A stretch of 64,000 nucleotides of DNA, from positions 1 to 64,000 of IMG/VR virus record IMGVR_UViG_3300042888_000931. One strand, written 5' to 3'. Shown here piece by piece: positions 837-21,112 of the stretch. Positions within the stretch are counted from its first letter, which is position 1, and each line of letters begins with the position of its first letter. The stretch comes from a virus. Both the position numbers and the translations under genes were made by a program. The notes below the pieces were generated by a model. It saw nothing but the letters and a program-made list of their open reading frames with translations. It made no database searches and was not told where the DNA came from.

Positions 837-2951
837 GTGGCAGAAGAGAATATTGACAATACCGCCAACGGTACTGGACCCTTCAACACCAAAATCCCTG
901 GACTTGGCGATGCAGCAGATATCCAGGCAGCCCTAAGACTTTATCACTATGGATCATATACTTATGATGCAGCAGCACCTGTTCCAGGCCCTCTTCCAAT
1001 CCCATCAGTTGCAAACCACCTAAAAACCCTTGTAGATGCAGATGCCCTAGAAGTAGTAAACAGAACTGCAGCAGATGACTTAGAAATAGTAAATAGAAAT
1101 GCAGCAATAGCAGCACATAATTCAGCAACTGTAAATGTCCACGGAATACTAGATACATCTGATTTAGTAACAATATCAGATCTAAATGATGCAATAGACA
1201 ACACAACTGGATCTTATCCTAACCTTGCTGGAAGCGGTATTGAGTGGAATTCTGTTGATGAGCAATTTGACCTTGATCAATCTTTATTAAACAATAATAC
1301 TGTAGTAATTAAGACAACTGGATTTACTTTAGATGCCCTCGATGTTAATAAAACAATTTTGCTTAATGCATCATCTCCAATGAATTTAACTGTTCCGCTA
1401 AATTCTGCTGTTAATATACCAGTTGGATACAAATATAATTTAGTTGAAATCGGAACAGCAAAAACAACTTTTGTTCCATCATCTGGCGTAACAATTGGTA
1501 GCAAGAACTCACAACTATTTTTAGATGGACAATATAGCAGAGGAAATCTTGTAAAGATTGGAACAGATTCTTGGATTTTGTATGGAGATGTTTATGAAGG
1601 TGTTGCAACACCTACCCCTACACCTGTAGCACCTACCCCTGTAGCACCTACCCCTGTAGCACCTACCCCTGTAGCGCCTACCCCTGTAGCGCCTACACCT
1701 GTAGCGCCTACACCTGTAGCGCCTACACCTGTAGCACCTACCCCAACACCAGTAGCACCGACTCCAGTTGCTCCAACACCAGTAGCACCTACCCCTACTC
1801 CTGTTGCACCAACACCTGTTCCAACACCAGTCCCTACTCCTGTAACACCGTTCTTTTCTCCAACACCAACACCAACACCAACACCAACACCAGTAGCACC
1901 TTCTTCAGGAGTTTGGTACACATTCTGCGGTAATGTTTCTGCAGGATATGCGCCAGGAACTGTAGTCGGACCAGTGTTTGATCCATCACTTACATGTTCT
2001 GAAGCATTAGCACAACAAACCTCATTTGGTGAAATTGGATCTGGATGGAACTGTGCATCAGGAACATCCGCATCTTCTTCTGTACCAGCAGCAAGTTGTG
2101 GAGTAACCCCTACACCAGTAGCACCTACTCCTACACCAGTTGCACCAACACCAGTCAACCCTTGTAACCCAGACTGGAGTTTAATTCCTCAATCACAATG
2201 TGTTGAGTGTGGATTAGTCTGGTCACCTGAGTTTGGTGAATGTATTAGCGTATCACCAACCCCTGTTGCCCCTACACCTGTAGCACCTACCCCTGTAGCA
2301 CCTACCCCTGTAGCGCCTACCCCTGTAGCGCCTACACCAGTTGCTCCAAGTTGTGTTCCAGCCGATGCGTGGTCATACAACCAGTCTAAGTGTCAGTCAT
2401 GCGGATATTACTACAGCACAGAATTTGGAGAGTGCTCAACAACTCCTTGGAATACACCTACCCCAGTTGCTCCAACACCAGTTGCTCCAACTCCAGTTGC
2501 TCCAACTCCAGTAGCACCTACACCTGTACCAGTTGCTCCTACACCAGTAGCACCTGTACCTGTACCTGTTGCTCCTACTCCAACTAATATATGTGCTGGA
2601 GATATTTCCTTACTTAGCCCAAGCCAGTGTACTGCTTGTGGATACTTCTACTCAACACAATTTGGTGAGTGTATAACTACTGCACCTACACCTGTAGCAC
2701 CACCGTTCTTCCCACCATTCTTCCCACCTTACTTCCCATTCTTCCCACCATTCTTCCCACCATTCTTTGGACCTGCACCAGTTGCTCCAACTCCAGTAGC
2801 ACCTACACCAGTAGCACCTACACCAGTAGCACCTGTACCTGTAGCACCTACACCTGTAGCACCTACACCAACAGGGGGATGTACTGGATGTATTAGAAAC
2901 TATTGCTACGAGCCATGTCCAGCATGTTGTAATGGCGACTGCGGATGCTAG
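837..2951 (+). CDS. Modular tail fibre with PTPVAP repeats and Cys-rich modules
   Basis: A 704-residue virion fibre or adhesin, starting at GTG 837 behind AAGAGGTGA. Residues 1-125 hold a VHGILDTSDLVT-type segment and residues about 130-255 a beta domain. Both are shared with the fibre at 10323 (VHGILDTAELVT; VPLNS...YGD). From about residue 257 the chain becomes PTPVAP repeats broken by cysteine modules. The first is about 65 residues (359-423). Three related modules of about 30 residues follow, near 441-473, 505-536 and 583-612, sharing QC-x2-CG, an aromatic-Ser pair and FGEC. A Phe/Pro stretch (about 622-645) and an eight-Cys C-terminus (about 680-704) complete it. The repeats suggest stiff, extended linkers between small disulphide or metal-bound domains. 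Binding target unknown. Confidence 0.75.
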   Translation: MAEENIDNTANGTGPFNTKIPGLGDAADIQAALRLYHYGSYTYDAAAPVPGPLPIPSVANHLKTLVDADALEVVNRTAADDLEIVNRNAAIAAHNSATVNVHGILDTSDLVTISDLNDAIDNTTGSYPNLAGSGIEWNSVDEQFDLDQSLLNNNTVVIKTTGFTLDALDVNKTILLNASSPMNLTVPLNSAVNIPVGYKYNLVEIGTAKTTFVPSSGVTIGSKNSQLFLDGQYSRGNLVKIGTDSWILYGDVYEGVATPTPTPVAPTPVAPTPVAPTPVAPTPVAPTPVAPTPVAPTPVAPTPTPVAPTPVAPTPVAPTPTPVAPTPVPTPVPTPVTPFFSPTPTPTPTPTPVAPSSGVWYTFCGNVSAGYAPGTVVGPVFDPSLTCSEALAQQTSFGEIGSGWNCASGTSASSSVPAASCGVTPTPVAPTPTPVAPTPVNPCNPDWSLIPQSQCVECGLVWSPEFGECISVSPTPVAPTPVAPTPVAPTPVAPTPVAPTPVAPSCVPADAWSYNQSKCQSCGYYYSTEFGECSTTPWNTPTPVAPTPVAPTPVAPTPVAPTPVPVAPTPVAPVPVPVAPTPTNICAGDISLLSPSQCTACGYFYSTQFGECITTAPTPVAPPFFPPFFPPYFPFFPPFFPPFFGPAPVAPTPVAPTPVAPTPVAPVPVAPTPVAPTPTGGCTGCIRNYCYEPCPACCNGDCGC
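1606..2875 (+). repeat. PTPVAP-coding 15-nt repeat blocks
   Basis: Degenerate tandem copies of a 15-nt unit (cctacccctgtagca and variants, coding P-T-P-V-A) occur in four blocks, at about 1606-1900, 2250-2345, 2455-2590 and 2680-2875, separated by cysteine-module coding DNA. Synonymous variation between blocks (cct/cca/acc, gta/gtt) shows they are not all recent copies. Near-identical runs at 1620-1740 and 2276-2340 do look recently expanded or exchanged. Confidence 0.85.
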
Positions 2952-2953
2952 TG

Positions 2954-2959
2954 TATAAT
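2954..2959 (+). promoter_or_regulatory. -10 promoter element TATAAT
   Basis: TATAAT follows the stop at 2951 and lies 36 nt before ATG 2996. The leader would be about 30 nt and includes an AAAGAG SD. It heads the zinc protein / oxygenase-like / glycosyltransferase / epimerase group. Confidence 0.6.
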
Positions 2960-2995
2960 AGATATTACCAAAATAATCTATAGAAAAGAGCATTT

Positions 2996-3235
2996 ATGTC
3001 AGAAGAATTAACTCCTTGGCAAAAATACAAACAAAGTTTGGGAGAAACTAGACCCTGGGATCTTGTCAATCCTGAAACACAGTGGGCTACTTCCGAGGTA
3101 GCAGAAGAAAGATACTCTATTTGTAAGGGCTGTCCAGAACTAATAAAATTAACCAAACAGTGTAAAAAATGTGGATGTTTCATGGCAGCAAAAACAAAAC
3201 TAGAAAAGGCAGTATGCCCACTAGGTAAGTGGTAA
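2996..3235 (+). CDS. Small zinc-binding phage protein
   Basis: A 79-residue protein with six cysteines, C43-x2-C46, C56-x2-C59-x-C61 and C74, ending in a CP-x-GKW tail. The spacing predicts a zinc-ribbon-like fold. Similar short proteins with a C-terminal CKKCGCFM...CPLGKW pattern occur in several environmental phages without a known function. The start has an AAAGAG SD and a promoter upstream. Its stop overlaps the next gene's possible GTG. It may bind nucleic acid or act as a small regulatory or assembly factor. The function is not known. Confidence 0.7.
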   Translation: MSEELTPWQKYKQSLGETRPWDLVNPETQWATSEVAEERYSICKGCPELIKLTKQCKKCGCFMAAKTKLEKAVCPLGKW

Positions 3236-3237
3236 AA

Positions 3238-3819
3238 ATGAAACCTCCTTATCTATTAAAAAATGTGTTACCACCAAAAGAACATAGAGAGTTACAAAAT
3301 TTGGCAATGAACTTGTGGTCAACAGACAAAACAACTTTTGATGAAGGATTTGGAAGGCATCAGTGGGCAATCTGGGATAACACACACAGAGAAAATGTAG
3401 AACCACTTAGAAAATTTCATGAGATGCTTTTGCCATTAGCAAAAGAAGAGTTTGAGTCAGAAACACTTTTGCCATCATGGTCTCTTATAAGTATTTATGA
3501 AACTGATAAGGCAAGGCTGTGGAAACATAAAGATGATAATGCTTGTACATATCATATGAACTATACTATTTTTCATAAGACACCCTGGGATTTTTATGTA
3601 GAGGGAGAAAGGTTTCAGCCAGAAGAAAACGATATGGTTATATCATATGGAAATGATCAAGAGCACTGGAGAGAAGAGTTTCCCAATCCAGAAACAAATT
3701 TAGTTGCAAATGCGTTTTTCTTTTATACAGAGCCAGATCACTGGTTTTTTACTGAAGGCCCTCAATATCTATATACCAATATTCGTGCTAAAAAAGATGA
3801 AGACTCTCCGAGTATGTAG
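3238..3819 (+). CDS. 2OG-Fe(II) oxygenase-like (cupin-fold) protein
   Basis: About 193 residues from ATG 3238; a GTG at 3229 would add three residues. The sequence LWKHKDDNACTYHMNYTIF carries an HxD pair (H-K-D). A distal His lies in NDQEHWREEF, and strands are arranged as in double-stranded beta-helix oxygenases. The C-terminal Arg/Lys that would bind 2-oxoglutarate is not obvious, so it is a divergent member or a cupin relative. It differs from the seven oxygenases downstream, which share a (N/D)DYEGGE motif missing here. Its neighbours are the glycosyltransferase and epimerase, suggesting a part in modifying a protein or sugar. Confidence 0.55.
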   Translation: MKPPYLLKNVLPPKEHRELQNLAMNLWSTDKTTFDEGFGRHQWAIWDNTHRENVEPLRKFHEMLLPLAKEEFESETLLPSWSLISIYETDKARLWKHKDDNACTYHMNYTIFHKTPWDFYVEGERFQPEENDMVISYGNDQEHWREEFPNPETNLVANAFFFYTEPDHWFFTEGPQYLYTNIRAKKDEDSPSM

Positions 3820-3821
3820 TT

Positions 3822-4856
3822 ATGGGAAATATTTTTTATCAACTTTATCAGCCTTGCGGTTTGTTTAATCAGATAACAAGTTTAGAAACTGCGGTTGGTT
3901 TGTCAAGTAGATATAAAAAACAATTAATATTTTACAACATCAGTAATCCTGCAAATGGAGATTATGGTGGAGCAAGAGTTCCAATTTACTCTGCAAACTA
4001 TAGATATAATGAAAGAAGTCATCTAATTGATGTAGATGTTTTTCCAAATATTTCAGATTTGATGGATTGGGAAAATAAAGATTGCAATATTTTAATAAAT
4101 GATATTGTGGATAGTTTTACTAATGAAGATTTAAAAATAGAAAATTTAATGATGTACTATTCACCTGCGTCAAATGACTATAAAGATACGGAGAGTTACT
4201 TTTCTGAAGGAAGAGAGAGGCTGCTACTAGATAACTACAACAATGTACATTTAAAAAAAACATTGGGGTATTACAGCAGATTTTTTTTAGATCGTGAACC
4301 CTCATTAGATAAAAGTCTATCTTCTGTAAGATTTAAATCAGAATATTATCAACTAGCAGAAAAGATAGCCTTGTCTATTGGACTTTTTAATGGGGCACAC
4401 TTTAGGCTTACAGACCATAAAGGTATGTTTGACCCAGACAGCAACATTTTAGATTCTGGAATTAGCCAAATAGATAATGGCTTGCCTATAGTCATGTGCA
4501 CCGATCAACCAAATAGTGAATTAATAAAAAACTCTTCTTATAGTTATTTGTTATTAGATGACTATATATTGAATAATTTTTATAAAGAGTTTAGAGAGTT
4601 TAAATTTAAAGAAGAGGTTTCATTTGGCATATTAAATAACCTAGTTATGCACTATAGTCAAGAATTTATTGGAAGCCCAGGAAGCACATACACTGGATAC
4701 ATCCATAGAGGATTAAATCAAAAAAGAGATATACAATGGAGAATATTCGGGGAAGAAGAGCATCCACAAGATGGTCCGTACTCCTGGAATGGGTATGACA
4801 ATAAGGATAGTTTAACAAAACAGTGGTGGAGAGAATGGAAGGAATCAAGAATATGA
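3822..4856 (+). CDS. Fucosyltransferase-like glycosyltransferase (putative)
   Basis: A 344-residue protein. The N-terminal PCGLFNQITSLETAVGLS recalls the GxxNQ...E.A...A pattern that opens O-fucosyltransferase and alpha-1,2/1,6-fucosyltransferase folds. The C-terminal EFIGSPGSTYTGYI closely resembles the xFIGxxxSTFSxxI motif that binds the GDP-sugar in those families. In between, PIVMCTDQPNSE looks like the strand-plus-loop of the second Rossmann domain. Such enzymes transfer L-fucose or a similar sugar from a GDP donor to protein or glycan acceptors. The next gene overlaps its stop (ATGA) and encodes an enzyme making GDP-L-galactose, a GDP-L-fucose analogue, which supports a paired role. The acceptor is unknown. 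Confidence 0.55.
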   Translation: MGNIFYQLYQPCGLFNQITSLETAVGLSSRYKKQLIFYNISNPANGDYGGARVPIYSANYRYNERSHLIDVDVFPNISDLMDWENKDCNILINDIVDSFTNEDLKIENLMMYYSPASNDYKDTESYFSEGRERLLLDNYNNVHLKKTLGYYSRFFLDREPSLDKSLSSVRFKSEYYQLAEKIALSIGLFNGAHFRLTDHKGMFDPDSNILDSGISQIDNGLPIVMCTDQPNSELIKNSSYSYLLLDDYILNNFYKEFREFKFKEEVSFGILNNLVMHYSQEFIGSPGSTYTGYIHRGLNQKRDIQWRIFGEEEHPQDGPYSWNGYDNKDSLTKQWWREWKESRI

Positions 4857-5884
4857 AAACAGCATTAGTATTTGGCGCAGGTGGGTTTATAGGAAGCCAT
4901 ATGGTAAAGCGTTTAAAGTCAGAAGGATACTGGGTTCGTGGTGTTGACTTAAAACATCCAGACTTTTCAGAAACACAGGCAGACGAGTTTATTGAAAGAG
5001 ATTTGTCCGTATATGAAAATGTTGAAAAGGTTATTCAGTTTAAAGGATATCAAGGAAACTTCTACCATGAAATTCCTTATCGTTCTATAGATTCATTTGA
5101 CGAGATTTACCAGTTTGCTGCAGATATGGGTGGTGCAGGATATATTTTTACTGGTTTGAACGATTCTCAGATTATGGAAAACTCTGCCTTAATAAACCTC
5201 AATCTTTTAAGAGCACAGTCTAGGCTTAATGAAAAATATGATATTAACAAGACTAAAATATTTTATTCAAGTTCTGCCTGCATGTATCCTGACTACAAGC
5301 AGTTAGATGTCAATAATCCTGGACTTAAAGAATCTGATGCATACCCTGCAGACCCTGACAGCGAGTATGGTTGGGAAAAACTCTTTAGTGAAAGAATGTT
5401 CTTGGCATTTAATAGAAACAATAAGATCCCAGTGGCCATTGCTAGATACCACAATATTTATGGACCAGAAGGAACCTGGGATGGTGGAAAAGAAAAAGCA
5501 CCTGCTGCAATGTGTCGAAAAGTTATACAGGCAGATGGCTTTGTAGAAATTTGGGGGGATGGAGAACAAACCCGTTCATTCCTATACATAGATGAATGCA
5601 TAGAGGCAACAAGAAGACTTATGCAATCAGATTTTACTGGTCCTGTTAATATAGGGTCTGAAGAGATGGTTACTATAAATCAACTGGTTGATATTGCTTG
5701 CAGTATTGAGGGCAAGGTTTTGAGCAAGATGCATATTCCTGGACCTTTGGGAGTTAGAGGAAGAAATTCTAATAATGATTTGGTAAGAGAAAGACTAGGC
5801 TGGGATTACTCAATGTCTCTTAAAGATGGAATTGAAAAAACCTACAACTGGATACTTCAGGAAACAAAAAAGAACCCCTCCTAA
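4853..5884 (+). CDS. GDP-mannose 3,5-epimerase (GME-like SDR epimerase)
   Basis: A 343-residue extended SDR enzyme. The start is ATG 4853, overlapping the previous stop. The NAD-binding GAGGFIGSH is at residues 7-15. The catalytic YxxxK is Y172-K176 in SEYGWEKL. An active-site Cys, C143, lies in SSSACMYP. Many segments match plant-type GDP-mannose 3,5-epimerase: QFAADMGGAGYIFTG, RYHNIYGPEGTWDGGKEKAP, GDGEQTRSF and IPGPLGVRGRNS. The known reaction converts GDP-D-mannose to GDP-L-galactose, with GDP-L-gulose as a side product. The product could feed the adjacent glycosyltransferase. Full length compared with the family (about 350-375). Confidence 0.85.
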   Translation: MKTALVFGAGGFIGSHMVKRLKSEGYWVRGVDLKHPDFSETQADEFIERDLSVYENVEKVIQFKGYQGNFYHEIPYRSIDSFDEIYQFAADMGGAGYIFTGLNDSQIMENSALINLNLLRAQSRLNEKYDINKTKIFYSSSACMYPDYKQLDVNNPGLKESDAYPADPDSEYGWEKLFSERMFLAFNRNNKIPVAIARYHNIYGPEGTWDGGKEKAPAAMCRKVIQADGFVEIWGDGEQTRSFLYIDECIEATRRLMQSDFTGPVNIGSEEMVTINQLVDIACSIEGKVLSKMHIPGPLGVRGRNSNNDLVRERLGWDYSMSLKDGIEKTYNWILQETKKNPS

Positions 5885-5905: not shown

Positions 5906-6469
5906 TTACTTAGGAAATTTAGCCATCCAGTATTTGGTTCTTGGAGTGATGCCCTTCCATGAGGACCAATCATCTCCACCATTTGTCATATAGTATGCAA
6001 TCTCTGCATTCTTGACGGGATTGAATAACTCAGCGTTTGACTCAAGATCAAACTTGGTTCTACGATCAGGACCAAGGTTGTCGATCATATTAATTTGGAA
6101 CATACCATAAGATGAGTCACCAGTCTTGTGGTTTCCGTTAAATGCTAATGGACGACCATTAGATTCCTTCTTGGCAACTGCCCAAGCCACAACAAGGTCT
6201 TTACCCTTGAAGCCAACTAGTGAAAGCAGTTCTTTTAGTTCTAGATCAGTCAGAGAAACCTTATTCTCAAAACTCTCTAGTTTTTTAGCCTTAGAAACCA
6301 AAAAAACCTCTTTCGAGGTGGTTTCCGATGTCTGAGCCTGTTCAAGGCTAAGATTGTTCTTTGTATCAAGACCTGAATCAGCATTTGCACCGTTCGACAA
6401 AACAGTTACTAATGCTACGATACTGAGTGTGCTAATGATCTCTTTGTTTCTTTCGATAAATTTAATCAT
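5906..6469 (-). CDS. Secreted lysozyme / lytic transglycosylase-like lysin
   Basis: 187 residues. ATG 6469 is chosen because AAGGAGG lies just upstream; the open frame continues 23 codons further without an SD. Residues 1-30 form a Sec signal peptide: a charged start, the hydrophobic ISTLSIVALVTVL and a possible cleavage after ANA. The mature part ends in a goose-lysozyme/SLT-like domain. The likely catalytic Glu is E102 in AVAKKESNGRP, followed by SYGMFQIN, a classic substrate-groove motif. It would cut peptidoglycan glycan strands outside the membrane, during lysis or entry. It is the only minus-strand gene, with its own promoter, leader hairpin and terminator. A signal-peptide lysin would not strictly need a holin for export; none is seen here. 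Confidence 0.75.
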   Translation of the reverse strand: MIKFIERNKEIISTLSIVALVTVLSNGANADSGLDTKNNLSLEQAQTSETTSKEVFLVSKAKKLESFENKVSLTDLELKELLSLVGFKGKDLVVAWAVAKKESNGRPLAFNGNHKTGDSSYGMFQINMIDNLGPDRRTKFDLESNAELFNPVKNAEIAYYMTNGGDDWSSWKGITPRTKYWMAKFPK

Positions 6470-6490
6470 AGTTTCCTCCTTAGAAAACAA

Positions 6491-6510
6491 TAACACCCTG
6501 GTAGGTGTTA
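6491..6510 (-). promoter_or_regulatory. 5' leader hairpin / operator-like dyad before the lysin
   Basis: A perfect inverted repeat, TAACACC-n6-GGTGTTA, lies between the minus-strand -10 box and the SD. If transcription starts about 6-7 nt after the -10, the transcript begins at this hairpin. It could stabilise the mRNA 5' end or be a protein operator. Confidence 0.5.
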
Positions 6511-6516
6511 CTACCA

Positions 6517-6525
6517 AGTATATCA
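6517..6525 (-). promoter_or_regulatory. Extended -10 promoter TGATATACT of the lysin gene
   Basis: On the minus strand the sequence reads TGA-TATACT, the same form as the + strand promoters, about 48 nt before ATG 6469. It gives the lysin its own transcription, separate from the surrounding fibre operons. Confidence 0.65.
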
Positions 6526-6555
6526 TGAGATTTTTCAAAAAGCAACTTTAGAGGG

Positions 6556-8291: not shown

Positions 8292-9779
8292 ATGGCAACA
8301 GTAAATAAAGATTTTAAAATTAAGAGTGGACTTATCGTTGAGGGCCTACAAGGTACAATCAACAATAAGAGAATTCTTACAGAGGATGCAGGAGATCAAT
8401 ACATCCTGGACCTTATTGGTGGAGAAACACTAGTAAAGTCAGTTTCAAATGAATTTGATGTTTCAGCAGGTGGAGAACTTTCACTTGACCGTGTAGTAGT
8501 AGATGCTTATTACGATGCAGCAGGCGATGCAGCAGCAGCACAGGCTGCAGCAGAAGCAACTGCTTCAGCAGATGCAACATCTAAGGCTAACGCTGCACAG
8601 GCTGCAGCAGAGGCTACAGCATCAGCAGATGCAACATCTAAGGCTAACGCAGCCCAAGCAGCAGCAGAGGCTACAGCATCAGCAGATGCAACATCTAAGG
8701 CTAACGCAGCCCAAGCAGCAGCAGAGGCTACAGCATCAGCAGATGCAACTTCAAAGGCTAACGCTGCACAGGCTGCAGCAGAAGCAACTGCTTCAGCAGA
8801 CGCTACTTCAAAGGCTAATGCAGCAGAAGCAGCAGCAAACCTTTACACAGATGGAGCAGTTTCAGCACTTGTTGATTCAGCACCAGAACTTCTAAATACA
8901 CTTAATGAATTGGCAGAAGCACTTGGTGATTCACCAGATACAATTACAAACCTTACAACATTAGTTGGAACAAAGGCTGACACATCATATGTTGACTCAG
9001 AAATTTCTGATCTTGACACAGCAGCACAGGGTTATGCATCAGCAGCACAGGCTGCAGCAGAGGCTACAGCATCAGCAGATGCAACTTCAAAGGCTAACGC
9101 TGCACAGGCTGCAGCAGAAGCAACTGCTTCAGCAGATGCAACTTCAAAGGCTAATGCAGCAGAAGCAGCAGCAATCGCACACGCAGATGCTCTTACAACA
9201 TCTGATGTAGCAGAAGGAACAGCACAGTACTTCACAGATGCTCGTGCTAAGTCTTCAGCAGCAAGTCTTTTGACTGGTGCAACACTTACAAACATTACAA
9301 TCACAGGAACAGGTGCAGGACTTACTATTACTGCAGAAAACGGTGTAGCAGACTCTACAACATCTGATCTTGCAGAAGGTTCACGACTATACTTCACAGA
9401 CGAAAGAGCAGTAGACGCTCTTGAAGCAGTAGTTCCAAACTTCACAGCAGTTGAGGTAAACTCAGTTGCTAAGCAGGTTGCTTCAACAATGTCAGCAGCA
9501 TCTGCAGGTGCTCATGTAGGACACGCATTTGCTAAAGCAGATTACCGTTCAGCAGAGTTCCTTGTAAAGGTTGCTTACGGATCACATACTGAAATCTCAA
9601 AGGTCCTTTTGACACTTGACGCTTCAGACAACATTGCAATGACCGAATACGGAATTGTTGGAACAAATGGCACAGCGATGTCAGTTTCAGCAAATGTTGA
9701 CGGTGCAAATGTACAACTTCTAGTAACAACCACAAACAATAACTCAACAGTTACTGTTGTCGGAACACTACTTGCGTAA
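8292..9779 (+). CDS. Long tail fibre with Ala-rich 19-residue repeats
   Basis: 495 residues with a strong AAGGAGAT SD. The N-terminus ATVNKDFKIKSGLIVEG is shared with the protein at 9815. Residues 84-178 hold five copies, and residues 253-290 two more, of a 19-residue unit QAAAEATASADATSKANAA, predicted helical. A central segment APELLNTLNELAEALGDSP also occurs in the 10323 fibre. Two 'YFTDARAKSS / YFTDERAVDA' motifs follow, and a C-terminal beta domain is shared with the 7828 protein. This is the layout of a trimeric, partly coiled-coil fibre shaft with a distal domain. Repeats may let shaft length vary by recombination. Confidence 0.8.
   Translation: MATVNKDFKIKSGLIVEGLQGTINNKRILTEDAGDQYILDLIGGETLVKSVSNEFDVSAGGELSLDRVVVDAYYDAAGDAAAAQAAAEATASADATSKANAAQAAAEATASADATSKANAAQAAAEATASADATSKANAAQAAAEATASADATSKANAAQAAAEATASADATSKANAAEAAANLYTDGAVSALVDSAPELLNTLNELAEALGDSPDTITNLTTLVGTKADTSYVDSEISDLDTAAQGYASAAQAAAEATASADATSKANAAQAAAEATASADATSKANAAEAAAIAHADALTTSDVAEGTAQYFTDARAKSSAASLLTGATLTNITITGTGAGLTITAENGVADSTTSDLAEGSRLYFTDERAVDALEAVVPNFTAVEVNSVAKQVASTMSAASAGAHVGHAFAKADYRSAEFLVKVAYGSHTEISKVLLTLDASDNIAMTEYGIVGTNGTAMSVSANVDGANVQLLVTTTNNNSTVTVVGTLLA
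8541..9161 (+). repeat. 57-nt tandem repeats coding the Ala-rich shaft
   Basis: Five adjacent 57-nt units (8541-8825) and two more (9048-9161) code for the 19-residue repeat. Units 2 to 4 are nearly identical at DNA level (gctacagcatcagcagatgc...), whereas the outer units differ synonymously. This pattern is expected from recent internal duplication. Confidence 0.85.
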
Positions 9780-10281: not shown

Positions 10282-10322
10282 AAGATAAGTTAATGGGCAG
10301 CCCCCATAAGGAGAATATACAA

Positions 10323-13375: not shown

Positions 13376-14089
13376 ATGACAACTTATGATGAAAATGAAA
13401 CCCCTTGGTTTACCAAGGATAGATCAGAAACAGCCTTAAATAGATATCCATCAAAAACTATTGGAAACAATATTTTAGTTGAAAACCCAGCATTAGGAAT
13501 TAACCTATACAGAAATGTGTTTTCAAAAGAAGATTCTGAAAGATACATAAAAATATTAGAGTCTAATCTAGGTGGCAATGGAAAATACAAATGGTCAGAA
13601 GCAAAAGTAACTAACTCAGATGTGCCAATTAAAAAGGCTAGAGATGCTGTAGACTTTAGATTTAAGCAAGAAAATTTAGGTCCAAGAGACGAAGATAACT
13701 CTGAACTAATTGACCTACACGAAGAGATCTATCAAAAGTTAAAGTTCTGTGTTGACGATTATGCACGGTACTGGGGAATCAACGTAGTATATTATGAAGC
13801 ATTTAACTTTGTAAAGTATGAAGGAGAAGGAACCCACTTCAACATTCATGCCGATCACGGTCCAATGTATAATTGCACGGTCTCTGCTGTTATTTATATA
13901 AATGAAGACTACGAAGGTGGAGAGATTAGATTTCCAAGAATGGACAATTATACTCATAGTCCAAAAATAGGAGACATTGTTCTTTGCCCATCAAACTATA
14001 TTTATGAGCATGCTTCATTGCCTATGAAAGAGGGAACAAAGTATTGTGTTGTCGTAATGACAGACATTAATGAACTAGGACACAAGTAG
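13376..14089 (+). CDS. 2OG-Fe(II) oxygenase 1 (prolyl-4-hydroxylase-like)
   Basis: 237 residues. The double-stranded beta-helix core carries H158-A-D160 in NIHADHG and the distal H212 in YEHASLP, with GTKY supplying a possible 2-oxoglutarate-binding Lys. Between them are the hallmark AVIYINEDYEGGEIRF and KIGDIVLCPS. P4H-type enzymes use O2 and 2-oxoglutarate to hydroxylate peptide prolines or small molecules. It is the first gene of the oxygenase operon. Its stop overlaps the next GTG. The closest relative in the window appears to be the 14866 protein (both have a DHG after HxD and an ESNLG segment), so these are duplicates. Confidence 0.85.
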   Translation: MTTYDENETPWFTKDRSETALNRYPSKTIGNNILVENPALGINLYRNVFSKEDSERYIKILESNLGGNGKYKWSEAKVTNSDVPIKKARDAVDFRFKQENLGPRDEDNSELIDLHEEIYQKLKFCVDDYARYWGINVVYYEAFNFVKYEGEGTHFNIHADHGPMYNCTVSAVIYINEDYEGGEIRFPRMDNYTHSPKIGDIVLCPSNYIYEHASLPMKEGTKYCVVVMTDINELGHK

Positions 14090-14856
14090 TGTCTTTAGTC
14101 GCTAAGTTCAGATCCTTTAGACCCTGGCTAGATAAAGAGAATATCTCTACACCAGTACCAACACAAAAAGAAATGCCAGATTGGTATAAAAACGCAGACA
14201 GATTTGCTAAAATGCCAAACGGAGAATACTATAAAGCACCAAAAGAAGTTTGTCCATTTCCCAAAGAAGGAACAACAGACGACTATGGAAAGATACCTAC
14301 ATGGAAGGCGTGTCCTGCAATTATGGATGCGTTTGCAACTGGTTATGTGTTTAAAACTCCTTGCGACCTAACATTTGCTAAAAATTCTCAGGGGATAATT
14401 AATGTTACAATTGATGATCCTAAATATAGAGACTTCTGTACACAAAGACCACCAATGCCACAGTTTGAACATCCAAAAGGATATTACCAGTACCACTTTG
14501 CCTGGAGTTCTCCATGGGGGCTAGAATTACCAGAAGGATATAGTGCATTATTTATGACTCCAATGAATAGGTTTGATCTGCCATTTTTAAATACTACTGG
14601 AGTTGTTGATTCTGACAAGGTACACCTTCTTGGAAGTTTTCCATTTTTTATAGCAGAGGGCTGGGAAGGAACGCTTCCTGCTGGAACCCCATACTTGCAA
14701 GTTCTTCCATTTAAAAGAGAAAACTGGGAACATGAGATAGAGATTTTAGGTCAGTCTGATATATATGGTAAAATGGTAGATAACGCAAAATTCTATCGGC
14801 AACCTGATGGAGGAGTGTACATTAAAAAAGTTTGGTCCCGTAGAGAATATAAATAG
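14089..14856 (+). CDS. DUF6065-like cupin protein 1
   Basis: 255 residues from a GTG that overlaps the previous stop. Notable segments are the N-terminal STPVPTQKEMPDWYKN, MTPMNRFDLPFL, FFIAEGWEGTLPAGTPYLQVLPF and KVWSRREYK. The pattern of a 'NP.N/MNRFD' strand followed by 'F..E.W.G.LPAGTP..Q..P' fits the DUF6065 type of phage and bacterial beta-barrel proteins, often found near oxygenases. No metal ligand set is evident. The protein at 15549 looks like a relative. It could be a partner or substrate carrier for the oxygenases. Function unknown. Confidence 0.6.
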   Translation: MSLVAKFRSFRPWLDKENISTPVPTQKEMPDWYKNADRFAKMPNGEYYKAPKEVCPFPKEGTTDDYGKIPTWKACPAIMDAFATGYVFKTPCDLTFAKNSQGIINVTIDDPKYRDFCTQRPPMPQFEHPKGYYQYHFAWSSPWGLELPEGYSALFMTPMNRFDLPFLNTTGVVDSDKVHLLGSFPFFIAEGWEGTLPAGTPYLQVLPFKRENWEHEIEILGQSDIYGKMVDNAKFYRQPDGGVYIKKVWSRREYK

Positions 14857-14865: not shown

Positions 14866-15549
14866 ATGCAAACATGGACAGAAAAAGAAGACCTTGGCAA
14901 TGGAATCATCTGCTATAGAAATGTAATCAAAAAAGAGTTTGACGTAATAAACAGACTTGAGTCCAACTTGGGATTAGTTGCTGACTACGGAGTGTTGTCT
15001 GCAGATGGCAAAAGATATCACTGGATGCCAGCCTATGTTGGATACCAGCAACTTATGCCAGACTATAGAGACTGCGTTGATTTTAAGTTTAAAAAAACAG
15101 ACATAGAATTAGACAAAAGCGAAGAGTCCTTAAATCTACAGGCATTGTGGCAAGACATTTATGATGCACAACATGCAGCAGTAGAAGATTATAGAAAAGA
15201 CTACAACATTATGCCACTTAAATACTGGGAGGCTTTTAACTTTATCAAGTATGGTCCAGGTCAGCACTTTATGGAGCACCATGACCACGGATATTCTTAC
15301 AACTGCACACTATCTTTAGTTGCATACGTAAATGACGACTATGATGGCGGAGAGTTATTCTTTAGACTGCAAGGACTAAACATTAAGCCACAGGCTGGAG
15401 ATTTGTACATCTTCCCATCTAATTTTATGTATCCTCATCAGGCTATGCCAGTTCACTCTGGAACAAAGTATTCTATTGTAACAATGTTAGACTATAGCAA
15501 GAAGTATCATACACCAGATATGTATGATCCAAAGTGGGACAATGAGTAA
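14866..15549 (+). CDS. 2OG-Fe(II) oxygenase 2 (prolyl-4-hydroxylase-like)
   Basis: 227 residues with an AGGAGAAT SD. H138-H-D140 lies in MEHHDHGYS, the core YVNDDYDGGELFF follows, then KPQAGDLYIFPSNFMYPH supplies the distal His and GTKYS the 2-oxoglutarate-binding Lys. It is strongly similar in layout to oxygenase 1. The N-terminal KEDLGNGIICYRNVIKKEF matches the 'hp.nv.s.ee' opening of phage P4H-like proteins. The stop overlaps the next ATG (TAATG), linking it to the second DUF6065-like protein. The repeat of oxygenase plus DUF6065-like pairs suggests duplication of a two-gene unit. Confidence 0.85.
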   Translation: MQTWTEKEDLGNGIICYRNVIKKEFDVINRLESNLGLVADYGVLSADGKRYHWMPAYVGYQQLMPDYRDCVDFKFKKTDIELDKSEESLNLQALWQDIYDAQHAAVEDYRKDYNIMPLKYWEAFNFIKYGPGQHFMEHHDHGYSYNCTLSLVAYVNDDYDGGELFFRLQGLNIKPQAGDLYIFPSNFMYPHQAMPVHSGTKYSIVTMLDYSKKYHTPDMYDPKWDNE

Positions 15550-16265
15550 TGCTAAATATATCAGTAGAAAGGATGCAAGGTAGTAATTTTAATATTAGTC
15601 CAATGTCTATTAAAAGAGATTGGATGGACCTTACATCTGAACACCATGCATATAGATGTTTTCCAGTAACACAGGCAAACGTTATTGGATGGAATCTTAC
15701 TTGCACAGAAGATATTGAGTTTGAGTGGGATGGTATAAATGATCAAACAGATCAGCATGTAACAATATTTAATCCACAAGGTTCTTATGCTGGTAGAGGT
15801 CAGTCTTCTATAAGTTTAAATACTAGTTTAGTTTTTAGAACAGATCCAGAAATTAGCATCTGGACAATTAATCCAGTAAACTATTTTAGCGAAGACTTTG
15901 AGACAATGTCTAACCTGGTTAGCACATCTTTTTATCCCAATCCACTACCACTTGCCATTAGAGCACGAAAAGCAAATCAAAGAGTAGTCATAAAAGCAGG
16001 TACTCCAATAGCAACGATTATTCCTATATCTCTAACAAACTTAAATAACACTACTATAGAGGTTGTTGAATATAGAGATGACGACAGGTCAAAGGAAAAC
16101 GCAAACAGATCCTACGGTGAAGCAGCACAAGAAGTAAACAAGTCTGGACAATGGACAGATTGGTATAGAGATGCTATTAACGAAAAGGGAGAAAGTTTAG
16201 GTTCTCACGAAGTAAAAGCATTAAAACTTTCAGTTAAAGATAACACGAATGGTGATACAATATGA
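15549..16265 (+). CDS. DUF6065-like cupin protein 2
   Basis: 238 residues, start in TAATG with the previous gene. Segments such as WTINPVNYFSEDFETMSNLV, SFYPNPLPLAIRARKANQRV and IKAGTPIATIIPISL reproduce the 'NP.N.F...G...T.f.P.p.p....... P.G.P.A.i.P' layout of the 14089 protein and the DUF6065 family. The C-terminus (KENANRSYGEAAQEVNKSGQ) is helical. It is sandwiched between two oxygenases, with an ATGA overlap downstream. No enzymatic motif is visible. Confidence 0.6.
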   Translation: MLNISVERMQGSNFNISPMSIKRDWMDLTSEHHAYRCFPVTQANVIGWNLTCTEDIEFEWDGINDQTDQHVTIFNPQGSYAGRGQSSISLNTSLVFRTDPEISIWTINPVNYFSEDFETMSNLVSTSFYPNPLPLAIRARKANQRVVIKAGTPIATIIPISLTNLNNTTIEVVEYRDDDRSKENANRSYGEAAQEVNKSGQWTDWYRDAINEKGESLGSHEVKALKLSVKDNTNGDTI

Positions 16266-16936
16266 ACATGGATGAATACAAAGTAGTACAAAGAAAGCCA
16301 TCAATGACGCCATCAGGCTGGTTTGGTAACAGCAAGGATATGATTGTTGAATTAGAAAATTTTATGACACAACAAGAAATAGAGTTTCTAGAAAAGGCTG
16401 CAAAGTCATTAACAATTTGGGATGTTACTGAAAGCCATGTTAATGAAAATGGAACTGTCGTATATGAAGCAAGTTATTGGAAAGACAGGGTTGCTACTAG
16501 TCCTACTCTAGATAAGAATGATCCATCGATTGCTCCAATTATTGCAGGTCTGTTTGAAAGACTAAAGCCAATAGTTGAAGAGTTCTACAAGGTAAAGGTT
16601 ATTCCTACTGGAACAACCATTGTTAGATGGCTTCCTGGTCAGTTCCAGAAGCCTCATGCAGACAAAGAACTGCATGAAGGTCCAGATGCTGGAACTCCAA
16701 ATGATTTTCCAAACTACGACCTTTCTAGTTTGTTCTATTTGAATGATGATTATGAGGGTGGAGAGTTATACTTCCCATTACAAGATGTTAAGTTTAAACC
16801 TAAAAAAGGTGCTGCTTACTTTTTTCCAGGGGATATGAATTATATTCACGGAGTAACAGAGATTAAGAGTGGTATCAGATACACCTGCCCATTCTTCTGG
16901 GAAATTACAGAGCATACGGGAGATAGAAAGCCATGA
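16262..16936 (+). CDS. 2OG-Fe(II) oxygenase 3
   Basis: 224 residues; ATG 16262 overlaps the previous stop, and a second ATG is two codons later. The iron site is H-A-D in QKPHADKELHEG with a distal His in YIHGVTEIKSGIRYT, whose Arg fits the 2-oxoglutarate site. The core SLFYLNDDYEGGELYFPLQDV is classic P4H-like, and KPKKGAAYFFPGD precedes the distal His. All residues needed for activity are visible. It is joined by ATGA to the next oxygenase. Confidence 0.85.
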   Translation: MNMDEYKVVQRKPSMTPSGWFGNSKDMIVELENFMTQQEIEFLEKAAKSLTIWDVTESHVNENGTVVYEASYWKDRVATSPTLDKNDPSIAPIIAGLFERLKPIVEEFYKVKVIPTGTTIVRWLPGQFQKPHADKELHEGPDAGTPNDFPNYDLSSLFYLNDDYEGGELYFPLQDVKFKPKKGAAYFFPGDMNYIHGVTEIKSGIRYTCPFFWEITEHTGDRKP

Positions 16937-17805
16937 CAGAGTCTCTTAATGCAGTTGAAATATATCCAAAGATTTTTGTATATAAGGGTCTCTTTAAAGA
17001 CATAAATCACACCTATAGTCTTTTAAAAGAATCAGAAGGACAGGAAGATGGACTTTTTAGTCCTTGGACGAGTTGGTCTCACTTTGGAGAATATATTAAT
17101 CCAATATTTAAAAACCATAATGATAATTTAAAAATAGAACATGTTCAAACTATAAAAACTTCAACAGAAAAACAAGAAGAACATAAGCAAGTTCTTTTAG
17201 AAATTCTTAATAATTTTATGATAGCAACAAAAGACTATATTGCAAAAAACAATGTTGACTTTGACGAAGATAGGCTTGTCCCAGGTATTAAAGATCAAAG
17301 AGGAAATGATGTTAAAGAATGGGTATATACTGGACCATCTATAGCAAGATACAAGGTAGACATTGAAGACCCACTGGCAATGACATATCATACAGACTAC
17401 ATAAGAGAGCCAATAGTAAGCCCAGGACACAAGTTTGCAATTACTGCTTTAACATACTTTAATGACGATTACCACGGTGGAGAAATTGATTTTATAGCAA
17501 ATGGAGAAGCGTATATGTATAAGCCAGAGGCTGGAGACCTTCTCGTTTTTCCATCAGGTCATCCAGAATTTCTAATGTCTGAAAAGTCTATATACCTTCA
17601 TGGAGTAATGCCTGCAGAGCATAACTCAAAGTATCTTTCAAGAATGTACTGGACAAAATACTCTACTGGTTCACCAGAGTGGCTTGAGAACGAAGAAAGA
17701 CTTGGCAAGGAAAAGTGGCAGGAAGAATGGAAAGACATTATGCAAAAGTTTAGAGATGAGAATCCTAATAGAAATAATGCTGATAAAGAAAGAAGGATAC
17801 AATGA
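16933..17805 (+). CDS. 2OG-Fe(II) oxygenase 4
   Basis: 290 residues, the longest of the set. The iron site is H-T-D in MTYHTDYIREP, the core ALTYFNDDYHGGEIDFIANG follows, then KPEAGDLLVFPSGHPEF and a distal His in YLHGVMPAEHNSKY. The N-terminal 130 residues differ from the other copies, with a charged helical part (KTSTEKQEEHKQVLLEILN) that may set substrate choice. The C-terminal 40 residues are highly charged. ATGA overlaps occur at both ends. Confidence 0.85.
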   Translation: MTESLNAVEIYPKIFVYKGLFKDINHTYSLLKESEGQEDGLFSPWTSWSHFGEYINPIFKNHNDNLKIEHVQTIKTSTEKQEEHKQVLLEILNNFMIATKDYIAKNNVDFDEDRLVPGIKDQRGNDVKEWVYTGPSIARYKVDIEDPLAMTYHTDYIREPIVSPGHKFAITALTYFNDDYHGGEIDFIANGEAYMYKPEAGDLLVFPSGHPEFLMSEKSIYLHGVMPAEHNSKYLSRMYWTKYSTGSPEWLENEERLGKEKWQEEWKDIMQKFRDENPNRNNADKERRIQ

Positions 17806-18548
17806 ATCTAGATAATAAAAAGAGAATAACTAAGGACATAGTTGTTTATGAAAACTTTATTGATGCAGAAACTGCTGCAAAACTTGTAAAGGTTTTAGAC
17901 AAGCATGTAGAAGTTGGCACAATAACCTGGATGCCTATATCTTTCTATGAGTCTTATTCCTCAGTATTGCCACAAGACAATGATGAGCATGTAGAAAACG
18001 AAGGATTGCCAAGCGACATATTTTCACAAATGAAGCAAGGAATTATTGAGGCAGTTGCAAGTGTTCACGATCTTGACCCAAAGATAATTTCTCAAATTGG
18101 ATACCATACGCAAAAGTGGGAGCCAGGAGCATATGCAAGAAAGCATTCCGATAACACTGATGAGCATGGAAAATCTGGTGCTTTTACAAGAAGCAGGTAT
18201 GCAGCATTCTTATATTTGAATGATGACTTTGAAGGTGGAATGTTGCAGTTCCCAGACCAAGACATAAGTCTTCAACCTAAAGTTGGAATGCTTGCTGCAT
18301 TTGACGGGGGATTTAACAATATGCACGAAGTAACCCTTATCACTAGTGGAGTTAGATACACCATTGGTTCATTCTGGGATGATCGTGAAGAGGATGCTTA
18401 CCCTCAAGAAGTAAGAGATGCTTGGGCTGAAGAGATGAAGGCCACTAGAGCACAACAGGAAATTGAAAGAGCAGAGTGGCAAGAGTTGCTGAAGCAAGGC
18501 TGGAAACTTGATGCTGATGGAAATAAATATAAGGCGGAGGACCTGTAA
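17802..18548 (+). CDS. 2OG-Fe(II) oxygenase 5
   Basis: 248 residues. The iron site is H-S-D in ARKHSDNTDEHG, the core AAFLYLNDDFEGGMLQFPDQD follows, and the distal His with Arg lies in NMHEVTLITSGVRYTIGSFW. The last 45 residues form a charged helix (WAEEMKATRAQQEIERAEWQ). The LQFPDQDI...PKVGML order matches soluble P4H-like phage enzymes. It is linked upstream by ATGA, and its stop is directly followed by the GTG of the next gene. Confidence 0.85.
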   Translation: MNLDNKKRITKDIVVYENFIDAETAAKLVKVLDKHVEVGTITWMPISFYESYSSVLPQDNDEHVENEGLPSDIFSQMKQGIIEAVASVHDLDPKIISQIGYHTQKWEPGAYARKHSDNTDEHGKSGAFTRSRYAAFLYLNDDFEGGMLQFPDQDISLQPKVGMLAAFDGGFNNMHEVTLITSGVRYTIGSFWDDREEDAYPQEVRDAWAEEMKATRAQQEIERAEWQELLKQGWKLDADGNKYKAEDL

Positions 18549-19211
18549 GTGGAAGTTTTTTTAAAAAAAGAGTTTGATGATGCTGGATATAGTACTGAGG
18601 TTTTTCATGAACATGTTTTGTTTATAGAAGACTTTATCAGTGCTGAAGAACTTGATACTATTTTAAAAATAATTGAAACGACCCCAAACGAAGACTGGAT
18701 GATAGAGTATACTAAAAATCTTGCTAGATTCTGCATGGAAAAGTTTGGAAGAGATGATGTAGATAATCTTGTTGCAGAAGGAAAGTTTGAGATTACTCAA
18801 AATTGGGCAGACAAGAATTTAAACATTGTTACTGAGCCGATAAGCGTAACCCTTCAAGGAAGACTTGGAAGACTTCTGGCACTTGCAGACCCATCTCTAG
18901 AACTTGCTGGTTTTGGAACACTACAAAGGATGCAGGGTGGGGTTGAACTAAAGTCTCACACAGACCAGCATACAGATCCATCCATTAGATATGCTGCTAT
19001 ACTATACATTAACGATGACTACAAGGATGGAACTTTATTCTTTAAAAATAAAGAGAATTCAGACTTAAGGCCAAAGCCAGGAACATTGCTTATTTTCCCA
19101 GGTAACGAAGAATATGAGCATGGAGTAAGGCCTGTAGGAGAAGGACCCATAAGATATGTTACTGTAGGCTTTATGAAGGTAACAGGTTTTTATGAGAAAA
19201 ATAAATACTAA
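18549..19211 (+). CDS. 2OG-Fe(II) oxygenase 6
   Basis: 220 residues from GTG 18549, placed directly after the previous stop with GGCGGAGG as SD. The iron site is H-T-D in KSHTDQHTDP, the core AAILYINDDYKDGTLFFKNK follows, and the distal His with Arg lies in YEHGVRPVGEGPIRYVTVGF. The usual EGGE is KDGT here, so the loop differs, but the ligand set is intact. The N-terminal half (FIEDFISAEELDTILKIIE) is the helical cap common to these enzymes. Confidence 0.85.
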   Translation: MEVFLKKEFDDAGYSTEVFHEHVLFIEDFISAEELDTILKIIETTPNEDWMIEYTKNLARFCMEKFGRDDVDNLVAEGKFEITQNWADKNLNIVTEPISVTLQGRLGRLLALADPSLELAGFGTLQRMQGGVELKSHTDQHTDPSIRYAAILYINDDYKDGTLFFKNKENSDLRPKPGTLLIFPGNEEYEHGVRPVGEGPIRYVTVGFMKVTGFYEKNKY

Positions 19212-19222
19212 GGAGATACAAA

Positions 19223-19852
19223 ATGGACAGAGAAATACTTGAGGAAAAGGTTTATTATTACACAAATGTAATTGAAGACCCAAAGAAACTTGTTGAGGCA
19301 ATTGAAAATGACAACAAGGATGAATGGGGAGAGTGGATGGCATGCAGCGGAGAGCACTATGTCTATGGAACAGACAAGAGCATATCTTTAACAGCAGAGT
19401 CAAACGAAAAAGATAAGTATATTTATAACACTCTACAAAAGGCATTTGATGATGTAGCAAGAGACTACGCTGCAGCACAAGGTATTACAGAAGAGCCAAA
19501 ACTGTTTCCAATGTATCCTATCAAGAAGTACCAGCCTGGAACGTTTATGGGTGCACACTTTGATCAGCAAGAAGGAGACGAAAGACTAAAGGTTTCTTTT
19601 GTTATGTACCTTAATGATGATTACGAAGGCGGAGAAATATCTTTCACTATTGCTTCTCCAGACGGAGTTTTACAGAATCCAAGCCCAGAAGCAGATTTTG
19701 CAGAAGCACAGCATAATGGAAATTATTCATTTGCAGTAAAGCCAAAGGCTGGAAGCATCATTGTGTTCCCACCATCACCACCATACCATCACACTGCACA
19801 CCTAGTTAAAAGCGGTGAAAAGATCATGGTCCCACAACACTGGATTCACTAG
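19223..19852 (+). CDS. 2OG-Fe(II) oxygenase 7
   Basis: 209 residues with an AAGGAGAT SD. The iron site is H-F-D in GAHFDQQEGDE, followed by VMYLNDDYEGGEISF. An insertion of about 30 residues (SPDGVLQNPSPEADFAEAQH) precedes KPKAGSIIVFP. The distal His is in YHHTAHLVKSGEKIMVPQHW, with Lys for 2-oxoglutarate. It ends the run of seven oxygenases; the methyltransferase begins one base after its stop. Confidence 0.85.
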   Translation: MDREILEEKVYYYTNVIEDPKKLVEAIENDNKDEWGEWMACSGEHYVYGTDKSISLTAESNEKDKYIYNTLQKAFDDVARDYAAAQGITEEPKLFPMYPIKKYQPGTFMGAHFDQQEGDERLKVSFVMYLNDDYEGGEISFTIASPDGVLQNPSPEADFAEAQHNGNYSFAVKPKAGSIIVFPPSPPYHHTAHLVKSGEKIMVPQHWIH

Positions 19853-19853
19853 T

Positions 19854-20447
19854 ATGACCCAGGGCTATCAAAATTTTAGCGAACAAGAACAGTTTGTTTT
19901 AAATTTACTTGATAACAAAAAAGAAGGATACTATGTAGAACTTGGTGCTGCCCATTCAAAAAATGGAAGCAATACTTACAGACTTGAAAATGAGTTTGAC
20001 TGGAAGGGTGTTTCTTTTGAAATTGTTCCAGAACTACACAAAGAAGTTTCTGAGAATAGGAAAAACCCTTGTATCCTTGGGGATGCTACAAAGTTTGACT
20101 ATATCAAATACTTTGAAGAAAACAACTTTCCAAACCAGATAGATTACTTGCAGGTAGATATTGATGCTGGATACCAAACAGATGGTAGACCTGCTGGTAA
20201 CCACTATACAACTCTACATGGTTTGATTGCTGTACCTCTAAATAAGTATAGATTTACAGTTATAACTTTTGAGCACGATTCAAACATGTACTGGAGAAAT
20301 ACGGCAATGCGTGATGCACAAAGAGAAATTCTTGACTCGTTGGGCTACTCTCTAGTTGTTAGACAAATCCATGAAGACTGGTGGGTAGACCCAACAGCAA
20401 TTGGACTAGAAAAATATAGAGAGTACTTTAAATGGGACACCCTATAA
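19854..20447 (+). CDS. FkbM-like SAM-dependent methyltransferase (putative)
   Basis: 197 residues from ATG 19854, which directly follows the previous stop (the frame is open 13 codons further upstream, inside oxygenase 7). YYVELGAAHSKNGSNTYRLE matches the SAM-binding first motif of FkbM-type methyltransferases (VDvGA..G..S). GVSFEIVPELHKEV gives the acidic ribose-binding position, and QIDYLQVDIDAG the later motif. FkbM-type enzymes O-methylate sugars and other small molecules. In this operon it could cap a sugar or a hydroxylated residue made by its neighbours. It overlaps the next gene by 16 nt. Confidence 0.65.
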   Translation: MTQGYQNFSEQEQFVLNLLDNKKEGYYVELGAAHSKNGSNTYRLENEFDWKGVSFEIVPELHKEVSENRKNPCILGDATKFDYIKYFEENNFPNQIDYLQVDIDAGYQTDGRPAGNHYTTLHGLIAVPLNKYRFTVITFEHDSNMYWRNTAMRDAQREILDSLGYSLVVRQIHEDWWVDPTAIGLEKYREYFKWDTL

Positions 20448-21112
20448 ACAATAAGACAGCAATTGTTACAGGAGCCAGCAAAGGTGTTGGATACGCAACA
20501 GTAAAACTTTTATCTGAAAATGGATATAAAGTTATTGCTGTTTCAAGAGACCTCTCTAAAGTTTCAGAACTTGTTTCTGAGAATGTTGAAATGTATGAAT
20601 TAGACATTACAAATTCAGAAGAAATTAAACGCTTTCACGAACACTATAAAGACATAACTTTAGATCTTTTAGTAAACAATGCTGGTGGAGGCTCAGGGCC
20701 AACATATATAATTAATGAGACTATGGACAACTTTAGAAGAGCGTATGATATAAATGTTTCTGGTCCAATGTATCTTTCCCAACTTTTTGTTCCATCTATG
20801 AAAAAGTCAGAGTCTGCAACAATCATTTTCGTTAGTTCTATTGGTGGAAAATATCCATACAGATCTGGTGGAAATTACACAAACGCTAAAAGAGGAATGA
20901 TGGCACTTGTAGACACCATGAGACTAGAGTTCCCAGAGTACGGAATTAAGGTTACTGAAATTTGTCCAGGTACAATTGACACACAAATAGAAAAAAGAGA
21001 AATTGCCATTACTGCTGAAGACATGGCTGAGTCTATAAGATGGGTAGCAAGTTTGCCAAAGCATGTCAACATAAATCATATAGAGATAAATCATATACTT
21101 AGTGGTAAATAA
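20432..21112 (+). CDS. Short-chain dehydrogenase/reductase (SDR)
   Basis: 226 residues, classical SDR. The cofactor motif TGASKGVG is near residues 14-21, with NNAGGG at about 86-91. The catalytic Ser is in FVSSIGG and the catalytic Tyr/Lys in NYTNAKRG (YxxxK). ICPGTIDT sits where the PG motif is expected. These enzymes oxidise or reduce alcohol/ketone groups with NAD(P). It is the last gene of the oxygenase operon and is followed by a terminator. It might process a hydroxylated or sugar product. The substrate cannot be read from sequence. Confidence 0.8.
   Translation: MGHPINNKTAIVTGASKGVGYATVKLLSENGYKVIAVSRDLSKVSELVSENVEMYELDITNSEEIKRFHEHYKDITLDLLVNNAGGGSGPTYIINETMDNFRRAYDINVSGPMYLSQLFVPSMKKSESATIIFVSSIGGKYPYRSGGNYTNAKRGMMALVDTMRLEFPEYGIKVTEICPGTIDTQIEKREIAITAEDMAESIRWVASLPKHVNINHIEINHILSGK

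Follow-up and report, generated by a model that had tools for sequence, protein, structure and literature searches.

We analysed a 64,000-nucleotide stretch of viral DNA (the window), which comprises positions 1-64000 of the 90,067-base IMG/VR record IMGVR_UViG_3300042888_000931 of an uncultured siphovirus. The window encodes two adhesins with low-complexity stalks, and we consider it likely that these head two adhesin-modification cassettes, in each of which the downstream enzymes modify the stalk of the adjoining adhesin. The clustering of adhesins with enzymes is far above chance. An array of prolyl 4-hydroxylase (P4H)-like oxygenases and a DUF6065 protein belong to an FFPP-repeat adhesin, almost never together with sugar enzymes, and a GDP-mannose 3,5-epimerase, a protein O-fucosyltransferase (O-FucT)-like enzyme and a further oxygenase belong to a PTPVAP-repeat adhesin. 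Since such adhesin-enzyme pairs recur in unrelated uncultured phages, they suggest a previously undescribed chemical-decoration system for phage attachment proteins. The window also contains the hallmark genes of tailed phages (portal, capsid, protease, tail, and polymerase). The top isolate matches of the portal are from Streptomyces phages (about 46-48% identity), and because these are the closest isolate portals, the host is likely a freshwater actinobacterium.

For the FFPP adhesins, a viral collection was scanned solely for DNA coding for FFPPFFPPFFP, and records of at least 15 kb were considered. Viral collections are redundant, and counts are therefore also given per cluster (80% clustering) or per distinct C-terminal tail. 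Oxygenase genes of the PF13640 family were present in 46 of the 50 FFPP-selected records, typically in 6-11 copies, compared with 11 of 50 control records selected for collagen-type repeats and 4 of 31 selected for a Walker-A motif (Fisher p about 5e-13 and 3e-13, respectively). Among loci with at least 4 kb of downstream sequence, an oxygenase gene lay within 3 kb of the FFPP repeat in 44 of 52 (34 of 40 clusters), often only 6-130 nucleotides away. All 17 full FFPP records carry a relative of one of two further window genes, at 15549 and 14089, within a few kb of the repeat (the 15549 type in 16 records). This pairing extends to phages that have no matching portal, capsid, or polymerase. A first-pass annotation of the window, made without database searches, had named co-occurrence of P4H-like genes with proline-repeat fibres in phages as something to look for, and in the viral collection this co-occurrence was found across diverged phages. 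The FFPP cassette of the window and its flanking genes are as follows.

10293-11804 (+): conserved tail-fibre gene with an Mtd_N domain, adjoining the FFPP adhesin; left boundary of the swapped cassette
11837-12808 (+): FFPP-repeat adhesin with two Fn3/PKD-like domains, the FFPP tract, and a Cys-rich C-terminus
13376-14089 (+): P4H-like 2-oxoglutarate (2OG)-Fe(II) oxygenase, array member 1 (PF13640); reciprocal-best partner in 10 of the 16 other FFPP records
14089-14856 (+): phrog_7084 protein interleaved with the array; homologues 48-94% identical in FFPP cassettes
14866-15549 (+): P4H-like oxygenase, array member 2 (PF13640); AlphaFold predicted local distance difference test (pLDDT) 93; reciprocal-best partner in 16 of 16
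15549-16265 (+): DUF6065 protein (PF19541, 5.6e-31); relative near FFPP in 16 of 17 full records
16262-16936 (+): P4H-like oxygenase, array member 3 (PF13640); reciprocal-best partner in 15 of 16
16933-17805 (+): P4H-like oxygenase, array member 4 (PF13640)
17802-18548 (+): P4H-like oxygenase, array member 5 (PF13640)
18549-19211 (+): P4H-like oxygenase, array member 6 (PF13640)
19223-19852 (+): P4H-like oxygenase, array member 7 (PF13640)
19815-20447 (+): FkbM-like methyltransferase, accessory, assigned by eye only; near FFPP in a minority of records
20432-21112 (+): short-chain dehydrogenase/reductase (SDR) oxidoreductase (PF00106, 1.7e-43), an accessory gene that closes the cassette in some relatives
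21212-23245 (+): ribonucleotide reductase, 84-98% identical in relatives; right boundary of the swapped cassette

A comparison within one clade (records with portals 67-97% identical) gave 7-13 oxygenases per record with FFPP versus 0-7 without it (Mann-Whitney p = 0.001), and well-supported tree branches require at least two changes of the FFPP label in this clade. Between the fibre gene and the ribonucleotide reductase gene, FFPP-positive relatives carry the FFPP adhesin plus 6-10 oxygenases. No oxygenase array was found at the syntenic site in FFPP-negative relatives, which have there another adhesin, often with homologous Fn3 domains and often ending in a Hint-like domain, plus other downstream genes. 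The repeats of these alternative adhesins include FSFAPFGVF, SFTPYSFTPY, GFSHYAGFSHY, and FGAFGAF. Adhesin and enzymes are exchanged together between constant flanking genes. Equal frequency of the arrays in relatives without proline repeats, which had been named beforehand as an outcome that would speak against the proposal, is not what these records show.

Two further features were seen among the adhesin loci of relatives. Sulfotransferase-like genes, with PF03567/PF00685 matches near or below the cut-off and a relationship to phrog_3347, lie near the adhesins at G001:93245-93973, G003:28527-29222, and G005:102594-103376 (L291, L300, L316). Several adhesins carry a C-terminal Hint-like (hedgehog/intein) domain (G010:46870-48180, G010:56674-59217, G035:3762-5135, L297:3192-4751). 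Both G010 adhesins match Hint_2 with E about 2e-4 and the other domains were recognized by eye; self-processing or ligation of these adhesins is possible.

We classified the array enzymes by profile and by fold. The window has eight 2OG-oxygenase-like genes, seven of them above the PF13640 cut-off. These seven (starting at 13376, 14866, 16262, 16933, 17802, 18549, and 19223) all retain the HxD..H motif plus K/R, and across the FFPP records the iron site HxD..H and the 2-oxoglutarate-binding K/R are retained in 153 of 155 array oxygenases. The eight P4H-like or related oxygenases listed by the first-pass annotation were thus all recovered, the eighth (at 3229) as a phrog_2954-like protein with a sub-threshold Pfam match. 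The closest matches in a profile search with the array were Bacillus anthracis P4H (6e-11), a chlorella-virus P4H, a prolyl 3-hydroxylase, and a lysyl hydroxylase. The fold comparison covers one modelled member (14866), for which the nearest folds were Pseudomonas putida P4H bound to EF-Tu and PHD2 with HIF peptides, together with Chlamydomonas P4H with (Ser-Pro)5 and the P4H of chlorella virus PBCV-1 (template modelling scores of 0.5-0.7 overall). By both profile and predicted fold, the array enzymes appear nearest to peptidyl-prolyl hydroxylases. The 14866 oxygenase is less than 60% identical to every isolate match.

The interleaved genes at 14089 and 15549 encode, by sequence, phrog_7084 and DUF6065 proteins and not oxygenases. 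The DUF6065 model has a weak dUTPase-like fold similarity, and the idea that this protein is a divergent 2OG oxygenase was unsupported by profile and fold comparison. Its gene has no match among isolate phages. Distant relatives of the 14089 protein occur in haloarchaeal tailed viruses, including L662 (Halophage HF1 48119-49003), and give no functional clue. At the end of the operon, where an FkbM-like methyltransferase and an SDR had been predicted, only the SDR was upheld by PF00106. The ORF at 19815-20447 had no match in Pfam, NCBIfam, PHROG, or the PDB, and none to a curated methyltransferase model. Both genes are inconsistent across cassettes, and their earlier inclusion as parts of the system was dropped in favour of an accessory status.

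The two repeat proteins lie where the first-pass annotation had placed fibres with PTPVAP and FFPP repeats, and both look like fibres, given the tail-fibre N-terminus of the former and the Fn3/PKD-like domains and Mtd_N neighbour of the latter. The N-terminal part of the PTPVAP protein (837-2951) is common to tail proteins in PHROGs. Its 31 repeat units, at 1617-2864, use 17 distinct codings. The same ORF also includes a short run of FFPP at about 2706-2760. The FFPP/FFP tract of the other adhesin (12434-12730) has 99 residues (53 F, 43 P, and 3 Y among them), with 14 FFPP units in 8 distinct codings. Such varied synonymous coding argues for selection on the protein and not for simple DNA slippage; an origin of the repeats by chance or slippage was ruled out by this codon variety. 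No match to the FFPP adhesin was found among isolate phages by BLAST, whose low-complexity filter masks the repeat itself. Among 84,980 cellular species genomes there were 17 FFPP matches, mostly isolated out-of-context stretches, and the few genuine ones are on short contigs of metagenome-assembled genomes that may be viral.

The PTPVAP cassette of the window comprises four genes.

837-2951 (+): PTPVAP-repeat fibre/adhesin with a tail-fibre N-terminal part, PTPVAP stalk, short FFPP stretch, and Cys-rich modules and tail
3229-3819 (+): oxygenase accompanying PTPVAP fibres; member of the phrog_2954 family with an HKD..H motif (Pfam match sub-threshold)
3822-4856 (+): protein O-fucosyltransferase-like glycosyltransferase (family profile leads to POFUT2); in 33 of 59 PTPVAP loci
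4823-5884 (+): GDP-mannose 3,5-epimerase (plant GME match), presumed to supply the GDP-sugar donor; in 34 of 59 PTPVAP loci

A scan of the viral collection for PTPVAP-coding DNA gave 70 loci with adequate downstream sequence. In 65 of them a gene of the 3229 type lies on the same strand no more than 2 kb downstream, and either this type or a PF13640 enzyme is present in 69 of 70 (36 of 37 distinct C-terminal tails). Where 4 kb of downstream sequence was available, 58 of 59 loci had a glycosyltransferase. The types overlap and include the 3822 type (33 loci), a PF11397 type (13), a GT8-like type (12), and a further fucosyltransferase-like type recognized by eye with no Pfam match (12). PF11397 matches all eight distinct members of one glycosyltransferase group (best 2e-25) and is absent from the window; we take it to be the family of Gnt1, the hydroxyproline GlcNAc-transferase of Skp1. 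Thirteen PTPVAP loci also have a JmjC/cupin-8 family protein (for example, L745:1699-2244), a further possible peptide hydroxylase.

The coupled epimerase and fucosyltransferase-like enzyme recognized earlier differ in how well they are identified. The epimerase is homologous over its full length to plant GME in the PDB (E=4e-91 over residues 9-351). The 3822-4856 protein on its own had no match, including in Pfam and PHROG, and the fucosyltransferase assignment is one of similarity through a family profile, with human POFUT2 as the top solved structure (E=2.5e-5). A relative of it scores 17.4 bits with the Pfam O-FucT model, below the 31.5 cut-off. In about 118 FFPP loci, the 3822-type glycosyltransferase was found in two and the epimerase in three; an FFPP pathway including these two enzymes was rejected for this near absence. 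The original proposal that the phage hydroxylates and glycosylates its own proline-rich adhesins is partly supported, by the adhesin pairing, by the likeness of the enzymes to peptidyl-prolyl hydroxylases, and by the PTPVAP sugar enzymes, and its single merged pathway is replaced by two cassettes.

A third pairing was recognized among the downstream genes of FFPP-negative relatives. Besides sulfotransferase-like genes, these comprise the A4 family (phrog_2696), in which an HxH..H..R motif is conserved. In 80 loci gathered by a search for this family alone (L663-L742), an FSPFGVF-type adhesin ends 45-1300 nucleotides upstream of the A4 gene in 71, and none of the 80 has FFPP. The FFPP and FSPFG types are mutually exclusive in 28 full records, and none of the 17 FFPP records contains A4. 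Like the FFPP loci, the FSPFG loci almost never have a 3822-type enzyme or an epimerase. The idea that A4 is a P4H-like or 2OG oxygenase found no support, as A4 shows a visible HxH..H..R motif and no detectable homology to known 2OG oxygenases.

According to the proposed mechanism, the seven P4H-like oxygenases, helped by the DUF6065 and phrog_7084 proteins, would hydroxylate the FFPP tract in the cytoplasm of the infected cell before assembly of the virion. That the array has several non-redundant enzymes suggests that they differ in the position or type of residue they target (Pro and perhaps Phe/Tyr). Since no sugar enzyme is linked to FFPP, hydroxylation alone may be its end product, occasionally supplemented with methyl or sulfate groups. 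Hydroxylation of proline in PTPVAP would fall to the 3229-type oxygenase, joined in many relatives by one PF13640 enzyme. The epimerase would supply GDP-L-galactose or a similar sugar to the O-FucT-like enzyme, and the latter would then glycosylate either the newly formed hydroxyl group or Thr. The modified adhesins would be part of the virion, and the benefit may lie in soluble, stiff, or receptor-specific stalks. On balance, we lean towards a modular rule, by which each stalk type (FFPP, PTPVAP, FSPFGVF, and others) moves together with modifying enzymes specific to it to give multiply hydroxylated, partly glycosylated or sulfated attachment fibres, so that a cassette swap alters surface chemistry and perhaps host recognition.

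The most serious alternative is that the oxygenases act on the adhesin, and mainly on its aromatic residues (hydroxylation of Phe/Tyr, desaturation, or cross-linking) rather than on proline. Phe is at least as frequent as Pro in the FFPP and FSPFGVF tracts, the FSPFGVF partner family is not detectably related to P4H, and most FFPP genomes have 7-14 different enzymes. The nearest relatives of the array enzymes, on the other hand, hydroxylate Pro or Lys, and we regard an aromatic target as possible and less probable than proline. It is improbable that the targets of the oxygenases are free metabolites or 2-oxoglutarate pools and that the adhesin site is a general insertion hot spot. Cyanophages do carry many 2OG oxygenases, for which an effect on 2-oxoglutarate levels has been proposed (PMC9602691, PMC3037559), but in our dataset the enzyme type follows the adhesin repeat type, cassettes at one site swap as units, and the closest homologues are peptide hydroxylases. 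Slightly less probable still are dedicated adhesin folding or assembly factors with little or no catalysis; the DUF6065 and phrog_7084 proteins have no recognizable active site and the dUTPase-like match is weak, whereas catalytic residues are conserved throughout nearly the whole array and PTPVAP cassettes include glycosyltransferase and epimerase genes. Modification of nucleic acid by TET/JBP or AlkB-like enzymes unrelated to fibres is very improbable, since a weak Tet_JBP match in one member (E=0.016) and one relative stands against the P4H, PHD2, and lysyl hydroxylase matches of the profile and fold searches, and this explanation predicts no link to adhesins.

Several points weigh against modification of the adjoining stalk. 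The evidence consists of sequences and structure models, and the PF13640 family also covers enzymes with other substrates. The contig-level control sets differ in habitat, the same-clade comparison being the closer match. Eight of the 52 FFPP loci have no oxygenase within 3 kb, one record (G048) carries a single oxygenase, and the DUF6065 and phrog_7084 proteins enter the proposal only as putative helpers. According to PMC7019647, hydroxyproline was sought in virion proteins of PBCV-1, and the note cited there apparently reports none. Presence of a viral P4H is therefore no guarantee of hydroxyproline in virions.

The apparently new part of the proposed system is the repeat-specific adhesin-enzyme cassette that moves as a unit between phages, and the chemistry itself has precedents. 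Prolyl hydroxylation occurs in collagen, HIF, and Skp1, and glycans on hydroxyproline occur in Skp1 and in plants. Plant arabinogalactan proteins and extensins have Ala-Pro, Thr-Pro, and Val-Pro repeats that resemble phage PTPVAP, although they are modified in a secretory pathway and not in a phage-infected bacterium; no homologue of plant hydroxyproline glycosyltransferases turned up, in searches that were not aimed at such homologues. In mycobacteriophages, phage-encoded glycosyltransferases act on virion proteins, as is proposed here for the PTPVAP cassette. We know of no prolyl hydroxylation step in glycosylated phage virions. In the Skp1 pathway of Dictyostelium and Toxoplasma, a P4H (PhyA) is followed by Gnt1 and PgtA (PMC3515798). 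The PTPVAP cassettes may parallel this order of a cytoplasmic P4H and then a sugar on hydroxyproline. Skp1, however, is a eukaryotic regulator modified at a single site, whereas the phage adhesins have repeats by the tens, and the window uses the O-FucT-like and epimerase variant with no PF11397. The PBCV-1 P4H (PDB 5c5t) is likewise virus-encoded and a clear profile and fold match to the array oxygenases, but it is not part of an adhesin-linked array. The oxygenase sets of T4-like cyanophages likewise bring many PF13640 genes together in a single phage, with up to 24 2OG oxygenases in S-SCSM1, and adhesin pairing is not among the features reported in the available part of that source (PMC9602691). 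The combination of adhesin, hydroxylase, and glycosylation in a phage, of which the first-pass annotation knew no description, was likewise not found described in the open-access literature.

If the proposal is true, a function would be assigned to many 2OG oxygenases that environmental phages carry and that are currently listed as auxiliary metabolic genes, and this would be, to our knowledge, the first case of prolyl hydroxylation and hydroxyproline-type glycosylation of phage attachment proteins. The rule that enzyme type is predictable from repeat type is testable. The cassettes could also yield enzymes with which hydroxylated or glycosylated repeat proteins could be produced in bacteria, and they may add a new dimension to phage-host recognition in freshwater.

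Three other genes were noted near the fibres or among proline-rich proteins. The fibre region has a lysozyme/transglycosylase-like ORF, recognized by eye, at 5906-6538 on the minus strand, with a counterpart minus-strand ORF in a relative (G004, 32913-33500). The protein encoded at 8292-9779 has AAQAAAEATASADATSKAN-type repeats and is 42-76% conserved in relatives. Outside the window, at G000 68825-71008, a PTPEPTPEP-rich protein is kept in FFPP-positive and FFPP-negative relatives; proline richness alone therefore does not demand an array.

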